64,000 nt of DNA. Origin: Microcoleus sp. FACHB-672. GTDB taxonomy: Bacteria; Cyanobacteriota; Cyanobacteriia; Cyanobacteriales; Oscillatoriaceae. Where the stretch lies: NCBI RefSeq assembly GCF_014695725.1, contig NZ_JACJOU010000017.1, positions 62,001 to 126,000 of the forward strand, written 5' to 3'. How positions within the stretch are numbered: the first letter of the stretch is position 1; the number at the start of each line of letters is the position of its first letter. Of this stretch, positions 46,963-47,906 are shown in pieces. The position numbers were made by a program, and so were the translations under genes. The notes beneath the pieces were generated by a model, which was not told the DNA's origin, made no database searches, and saw only the letters and a list, made by a program, of their open reading frames with translations.

Positions 46963-47294
46963 TGCTGGTTGGGGGGTTGAGTTTTGGGTTGAGATAAGAG
47001 AATTCCGAAATTTTTTGTGTTTCTCCCTTTCCTACGTGCTTGGAAGATTAGGGGATTTGGGGATTGTGTTTATTTGTTAGGTTTTTTGAGTTTATGTGAG
47101 GGGATATTCGCGGTCTTTGCCGCCAATTTTTTAATTGTCATTGTCTATTTTTGTTGTAACTCACGAATTGGGAATTGTGGGGCAGCCAAATGGTAGACGC
47201 ATAAGGAAGTGGCTTAGAAAAAAGCGGTTTTTCCAGATGCTGCAAGGGATTTTCGGAATCAAGTAGCAGAAAGTTACTTGATGGATTATTTCTT
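46963..47294. other. Divergent region before the RGSGR gene
   Basis: A 332-base gap between aldehyde dehydrogenase (minus) and the RGSGR gene (plus). It holds a weak hairpin near 47218-47237 (GAAAAA/TTTTTC). No clear -10/-35 pair, NtcA box or published HetR-type inverted repeat was recognised. The ribosome-binding site of the RGSGR gene is weak. Confidence 0.5.
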
Positions 47295-47741
47295 ATGGGC
47301 ATCTACAAAATTGCTTTATCGGGTTTATTACTGCTTGGTGGTGCTGTTAATTTTCAGGGTGTTGAGTTTCGCCTGTCTGAAGGATATCAAGTTGATTCCA
47401 CTCAAAAAGTGGGTTTTTCTCAGGTGCAAACTGCGAAGGATCGCTGCGATGATCGTCCGGGTTGTGATGACCGGCGGGCTAATCGTGGCAGTGGGCGTGT
47501 TGATGTTGAAGGAAAAAATGCTAAGGATGATCAGGATCATCCCGGTGGTGGCAATCGGTTTGCCCATCGCGGCAGTGGGCGAACTGAGTCTGATCCGTTG
47601 CCGGTTCAAGCAAAAAGTGATCAAGATGATCAGGATCATCCCGGTGGTAGCAACCGTTTTGCCAATCGCGGCAGTGGGCGAACTGACTCCGATCCTTCAG
47701 ATTCTTTGCCAATCACGACTGGAGGTTTATTTGACTGTTAA
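47295..47741 (+). CDS. Secreted protein with three RGSGR motifs, PatX-like candidate
   Basis: A 148-residue protein. Residues 1-22 look like a signal peptide (MGIYKIALSGLLLLGGA). The remainder is Asp- and Gly-rich and holds RGSGR at residues 64-68, 92-96 and 125-129, each preceded by Ala-Asn or Ala-His. RGSGR is the active pentapeptide of PatS and HetN, and RG(S/T)GR marks PatX, small exported proteins found with the regulator HetR in filamentous cyanobacteria. Residues 78-101 and 111-134 are near-identical repeats; of seven base differences, four are silent and five fall at third positions in this frame, which argues that it is translated. A competing ORF in another frame (47278-47778) has no such support. 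Four cysteines (51, 57, 148 and none in the repeats apart from these) cannot be interpreted further; only three are in fact present. I infer a precursor of RGSGR peptides. Confidence 0.75.
   Translation: MGIYKIALSGLLLLGGAVNFQGVEFRLSEGYQVDSTQKVGFSQVQTAKDRCDDRPGCDDRRANRGSGRVDVEGKNAKDDQDHPGGGNRFAHRGSGRTESDPLPVQAKSDQDDQDHPGGSNRFANRGSGRTDSDPSDSLPITTGGLFDC
47526..47696 (+). repeat. Direct repeat of the RGSGR unit
   Basis: Two 72-base copies (47526-47597 and 47625-47696) differ at seven positions and each encodes one RGSGR motif. A third, shorter and more diverged unit with RGSGR lies just upstream at 47484-47498. This indicates internal duplication. Confidence 0.85.
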
Positions 47742-47906
47742 GGTTGTGTGCTTTTACTTATGTATGCCGGCGCTGTAGACTGGGCCTACATCTGCGAGTT
47801 TAAAACTCAAACAATTAACTTCTGCAAAACCTCAATGGTTGATGGTAAAATCAAGTAATAAGCATTGAACAATGTTGCATAAAAATATTCTTTGGATTTG
47901 GTGTTT

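Follow-up and report, generated by a model that had tools for sequence, protein, structure and literature searches.

The open reading frame at positions 47295 to 47741 of the window, by which we mean the whole 64,000-nucleotide stretch of Microcoleus sp. FACHB-672 DNA that was analyzed, is, on comparative sequence evidence, a real gene, and its product is best described as a divergent, multi-copy homologue of PatX. This assignment is based on a match to the NCBIfam profile NF047413 (heterocyst-inhibiting PatX), on orthologues scoring above the profile cut-off, and on the promoter layout. We consider it fairly probable (roughly 70%) that the gene encodes a PatX-type secreted precursor with a duplicated signal part, from which HetR-binding XRGSGR peptides would be released. 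The homology, the conserved frame and motif copies, the presence of hetR with an intact binding pocket, and the promoter layout are established. The following features were located in the window.

47232–47237, plus strand: DIF1-like box TCCAGA, 63 nt 5' of the ATG and one base off TCCGGA
47258–47282, no strand: inverted repeat ATCAAGTA-N9-TACTTGAT, 3' of the DIF1-like box and 5' of the ATG
47295–47741, plus strand: multi-copy PatX-like precursor gene with an ATG start, 148 amino acids (aa) and three RGSGR; NF047413 match below cut-off; under purifying selection
47295–47357, plus strand: signal-peptide-like N-terminus (MGIYKIALSGLLLLGGAVNFQ), recognized by inspection and alignable with the PatX profile and with relatives
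47484–47498, plus strand: RGSGR copy 1, context NRGSGR, residues 64–68, codons CGT GGC AGT GGG CGT
47505–47695, plus strand: 99-nt tandem repeat (Tandem Repeats Finder), 1.9 copies, spanning RGSGR copies 2 and 3 together with an acidic spacer
47568–47582, plus strand: RGSGR copy 2, context HRGSGR, residues 92–96, codons CGC GGC AGT GGG CGA
47667–47681, plus strand: RGSGR copy 3, context NRGSGR, residues 125–129, codons CGC GGC AGT GGG CGA

On visual inspection, the 148-aa protein begins with a short n-region followed by a hydrophobic segment (MGIYK-IALSGLLLLGGAV), which agrees with the signal-peptide-like start described in the initial annotation. The three RGSGR pentapeptides reported there were likewise found at the positions given above, with 19 residues between the end of copy 3 and the C-terminus. 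The tandem repeat has a period of 99 nt with 86% match, and RGSGR copy 1 lies outside the array. A chance origin of the three pentapeptides was excluded by 300,000 shuffles of the protein, among which one RGSGR occurred in 623 and two occurred in none. The differences between the repeat units had been described as mainly silent, but this did not hold, as 4 synonymous and 8 nonsynonymous changes were counted over 30 codons.

Comparison with two congeners indicated purifying selection on the RGSGR frame. The dN/dS ratio was 0.19 relative to G004 (142 codons; 12 synonymous and 8 nonsynonymous changes) and 0.47 relative to G003 (143 codons; 19 synonymous and 31 nonsynonymous changes). The frame and all three copies were retained in both congeners searched; across G003, G004, and the genome analyzed here (G000), the RGSGR codons differed by silent changes only and all three pentapeptides were exact. 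It is extremely improbable that the RGSGR frame is untranslated and that the competing ORF at 47278 to 47778 is the actual gene. The competing ORF is longer (166 aa) and remains free of stops over the aligned part of G003 and G004, but its dN/dS ratios in the G004 and G003 comparisons (0.99 and 1.27) do not point to purifying selection. It was rejected as a gene on these values, which also answer the question, raised in the initial annotation, of whether it might be the more strongly conserved of the two. Its single NCBIfam match was weak (14.6 bits, with a cut-off of 278), and a Pfam search with both the RGSGR frame and the competing ORF matched no family. Among the remaining frames, a low ratio was observed in only one minus-strand frame (0.31, in the G004 comparison only), yet this frame has stops in 11 of 141 codon pairs.

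The NF047413 profile aligned with residues 6 to 69 of the protein (profile positions 7 to 67 of 69; E value, 3.2e-4). Both the score of the protein (21.4 bits) and that obtained in the genome search (25.4 bits) are lower than the 30-bit equivalog cut-off, and the window protein is therefore classed as a PatX-like variant and not as a PatX equivalog. Orthologues in G005, G006, and G007 scored above the cut-off. With E values up to 0.05 allowed, one of the 14 control genomes also gave a match to the profile, with a score under the cut-off; weak matches were therefore excluded from the evidence. The window protein shares with PatX the hydrophobic N-terminus, the RGSGR pentapeptide, a DIF1-type box near position -60, and a hetR gene in the same genome. 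It differs in having three RGSGR instead of one, approximately twice the length, linkers between the copies, a TCCAGA box, and a score below the cut-off. One RG(S/T)GR per protein is the usual PatX layout, a regularity and not a stated definition, and was found in all 33 loci read from family f33, which probably represents the heterocyst-forming Nostocaceae. No multi-copy form occurred among these 33 loci read (the 30 best scoring and three chosen for their long frames).

In Anabaena, the DIF1 motif TCCGGA has been reported to drive transcription of patS and patX in a HetZ-dependent manner (PMC7377430). The same motif was located 63 nt before the ATG in 30 of 30 f33 patX loci and at position -61 of the hetR-adjacent paralogue on contig C10 of the Microcoleus genome. 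Orthologues of the window gene in G003 to G007 carry TCCAGA at -62 or -63, while those in G001 and G002 carry TCCTGA. No TCCNGA was found between -80 and -45 of the C16 paralogue or of the multi-copy genes of G015, G099, and G117. The inverted repeat downstream of the DIF1-like box could serve as an operator or form a hairpin. Inverted repeats with a score of at least 8 were detected upstream of 16 of 124 PatX-like genes and in 0.5% of shuffled sequences, a comparison to which no probability can be attached, since the genes are related. In the upstream regions of relatives (L054, L089, L095, and L008), an inverted repeat with co-varying arms was also observed between the DIF1-like box and the ATG, as exemplified by TCCGTATCAGG...CCTGACACGGA and TGAATCACT...AGTGATTCA.

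The gene was present in all eight family genomes searched, including G000. Repeat number varied among them, with two (G002), three (G000, G001, G003, and G004), five (G005), or six (G006 and G007) RGSGR per gene. The genomic location is conserved within the genus, where the gene is flanked by ureC and by an aldehyde dehydrogenase gene, one on each side (L001, L002, L003, and L079). In the family outside the genus, an aldehyde dehydrogenase match was located near the gene in L008 and was fragmented in L081. Matches in L080 and L082 were limited to short pieces; in L007, part of ureC was seen and no aldehyde dehydrogenase.

A hetR gene, which the initial annotation had proposed to look for, was found on contig C10 of the same genome (E value, 1.0e-42). 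The HetR residues reported to bind or affect PatS6 are R223, E253, E254, D256, D270, and D278 (PMC4649674), and all six are conserved in the Microcoleus protein when aligned to Anabaena HetR. Among 16 HetR proteins aligned in this way, the only exceptions at these six residues were N278 (G099) and T254 (G162). Co-occurrence was surveyed in the order with a sample of 388 genomes taken from a larger group. PatX matches with E values up to 0.05 were obtained in 220 of these genomes and HetR_C matches in 238; 170 of the PatX matches were considered strong (E value under 1e-4), and 236 of the HetR_C matches exceeded the cut-off and were counted. HetR_C over the cut-off was present in 168 of the 170 genomes with strong PatX matches (exceptions, G015 and G144), and 68 genomes encoded HetR_C with no strong PatX match. 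Among the 50 weak PatX matches, 17 were in HetR-bearing genomes.

No nifH match above the curated cut-off of 394.35 bits was found in the Microcoleus genome. The best match there, at 220.5 bits, is presumably bchL, a related gene. The process controlled by the precursor is thus expected not to be nitrogen-fixing heterocyst formation, which supports the earlier proposal of a role outside it. Matches to nifH above the cut-off were obtained in one of the eight family genomes (G006) and in 3 of 11 other multi-copy genomes (G010, G151, and G357). This leaves 15 of 19 multi-copy genomes with no nifH above the cut-off; the 19 include G010, whose gene carries RASGR, and the 15 include G007, which is only 66% complete.

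Multi-copy precursors were not restricted to the family. After L135, a truncated duplicate of L153, and a spurious frame from each of L005, L103, L110, and L161 had been removed, 124 of the 129 PatX-like frames obtained remained. Two or more RG(S/T)GR (range, 2 to 17) were present in 18 of the 124 frames, which is not a prevalence because sampling favored the best scores and long frames; these 18 belong to six families (f1, f2, f9, f12, f28, and f32). Beyond the eight family genomes, two copies were found in G162 and G357, three in G038, G078, and G110, four in G151, G060, and G117, 11 in G015, and 17 in G099. A tree was calculated from the promoter and signal-peptide regions of 99 DNA rows, with the f33 loci thinned to 7 of 33 (L009, L010, L012, L019, L022, L126, and L127); it has few columns and many weak forks, and 33 of its 95 inner branches are open. 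On this tree, the multi-copy state (19 rows, including variants such as RASGR) requires 6 changes, of which at least 3 are forced by starred branches. A single clade of multi-copy genes was thus not supported.

The export, the cleavage into several peptides, and the HetR binding suggested below are modeled on PatX of Nostoc and PatS of Anabaena; the HetR inhibition and the controlled process are likewise proposals. In Nostoc, export of PatX was reported to be required, and PatP processes the protein around the hexapeptide HRGTGR, which binds HetR (PMC12756182). The PatP cleavage data come from Nostoc genetics and an Escherichia coli reporter, and according to the authors the in vivo sites await confirmation (PMC12756182). 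By analogy, the signal-bearing part of a PatX-type precursor would have been duplicated in Microcoleus, and the N-terminus would direct the precursor to the periplasm. Proteases, possibly a PatP-type peptidase, would cut the acidic linkers. Up to three XRGSGR peptides (NRGSGR, HRGSGR, and NRGSGR) might be released from each precursor. PatS6 has been described to bind HetR as XRGSGR, with X being any residue (PMC4649674); NRGSGR and HRGSGR should therefore fit HetR. The released peptides would spread through the filament and enter its cells, where binding to the HetR hood domain would dislodge HetR from DNA, and several copies per precursor would yield more signal per molecule made. Filament breakage through necridia has been proposed for Oscillatoriales (PMC12756182), and this process would be a plausible target, as would, in our view, hormogonium formation.

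Several observations count against HetR-binding peptides released from a multi-copy PatX-type precursor. These are the NF047413 score below the cut-off, the one-mismatch DIF1-like box, the failure to find a TCCNGA box from -80 to -45 in the C16 paralogue and in three multi-copy genes (G015, G099, and G117), the effects of PatX on expression in the non-heterocystous Leptolyngbya BL0902, which were reported to be basically HetR independent (PMC11298460), and G015, in which a gene with 11 copies occurs and no HetR was found. In particular, the last two could indicate that the gene encodes a secreted multi-peptide signal precursor whose receptor is not HetR, or for which HetR is one of several receptors. 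The existence of PatX-like proteins with other pentapeptides (RGEGR, RGGGR, RGNGR, and RGCGR) would fit this explanation as well. We nevertheless regard it as unlikely, as the Microcoleus genome itself encodes a HetR with an intact pocket and nearly all genomes with strong PatX matches (168/170) encode HetR. Furthermore, the result for G015 (L107), in which searches with HetR_C, Peptidase_S48, and full-length HetR yielded no match, was obtained with a 99% complete draft genome in 320 contigs.

Alternatively, the protein could be a PatX homologue whose copy number is without function, the repeats being products of slippage and only one RGSGR being released or important. Copies 2 and 3 do sit within a tandem repeat, and the repeats appear homogenized when compared to G003, whose two units differ from each other at 4 of 60 nt and from the G000 units at 11 to 14 of 60. 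Homogenization is not seen between G000 and G004, however, where like copies differ at 2 to 3 of 60 nt and unlike copies at 6 to 8, which indicates that each copy has been maintained as a distinct unit. In G000, G003, and G004, every RGSGR is also exact even though the spacers vary, and the 17 exact RGSGR of G099 have been retained with three codon sets. Together with the occurrence of multi-copy forms in six families and the repeated changes on the tree, these patterns make functionless copies quite improbable. A multi-copy PatX-type precursor that releases HetR-binding peptides therefore remains the preferred reading.

PatS and HetN contain one RGSGR each. The pentapeptide of the window protein is exactly that of PatS and HetN of Anabaena PCC 7120 (PMC7761841), whose precursors are likely cleaved in the cytoplasm (PMC12756182). 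Their role is in heterocyst patterning, in contrast to the situation in the Microcoleus genome, in which nifH above the cut-off was lacking. Multi-copy signal precursors occur elsewhere. The yeast alpha-factor is released as several identical peptide signals per secreted precursor, but it is eukaryotic, with other processing and another receptor, and serves as an analogy only. Another example is provided by the tandem Phr propeptides of Bacillota, in which one exported propeptide likewise contains several copies of the mature signal (PMC11343458). They belong to an unrelated family, act on a Rap receptor, and contain 1 to 4 repetitions (PMC11343458), compared to up to 17 in the proteins described here. 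With 17 signal copies, the G099 precursor would extend the bacterial range far beyond the 1 to 4 quoted for Bacillota.

The role of HetR and PatX in non-heterocystous filamentous cyanobacteria has been called a mystery (PMC11298460). The three-copy precursor and its 17-copy relative suggest that filaments may use multi-signal precursors for signaling outside the patterning of nitrogen-fixing cells. A multi-signal precursor in a genome with no nifH above the cut-off also offers a natural test case, in which copy number is the variable and output is measurable. More tentatively, and at slightly less than even odds, these genes may represent an overlooked class of PatX-type poly-signal pro-proteins with 2 to 17 exact RGSGR, expanded repeatedly and independently beside single-copy patX and paralogues with altered pentapeptides. 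Together, these would form a peptide system in which copy number acts as dosage control. Such a system would occur mostly in nitrogenase-less organisms, would hence predate or be separate from heterocyst patterning, and could possibly have a second receptor besides HetR. Among the matches listed in the literature searched, no description of a multi-copy PatX was found; the founding PatX paper, reportedly that of Elhai and Khudyakov from 2018, was outside this scope. Tandem signal propeptides are already known in Bacillota, and priority for a multi-copy PatX is subject to the 2018 paper.

The Microcoleus genome encodes four PatX-like genes, located on contigs C10, C16, C17 (the window gene), and C22. 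The C10 paralogue is a single-copy patX approximately 0.6 kb upstream of hetR on the same strand, and the C16 paralogue is a second single-copy PatX-like gene. A hetR-adjacent gene of another kind was observed in G010 (L148, family f4), where a PatX-like frame approximately 0.3 kb upstream of hetR contains four RASGR in place of RGSGR. No matching change was found in the HetR pocket of G010, in which all six residues are conserved in the alignment. The altered pentapeptides RGEGR, RGGGR, RGCGR, and RGNGR were observed in family f2 (L116, L119, L122, L125, L124, L169, and L170), family f15 (L103 and L110), and family f21 (L138 and L145). The C22 paralogue (L073) contains no RGSGR and ends in DRPKSGGRRA. 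L074, L077, and L076 are, like L073, PatX-like and free of RGSGR, with a C-terminal SGGRRA or SGGRKN, and proteins with these endings possibly constitute a further class of peptides.
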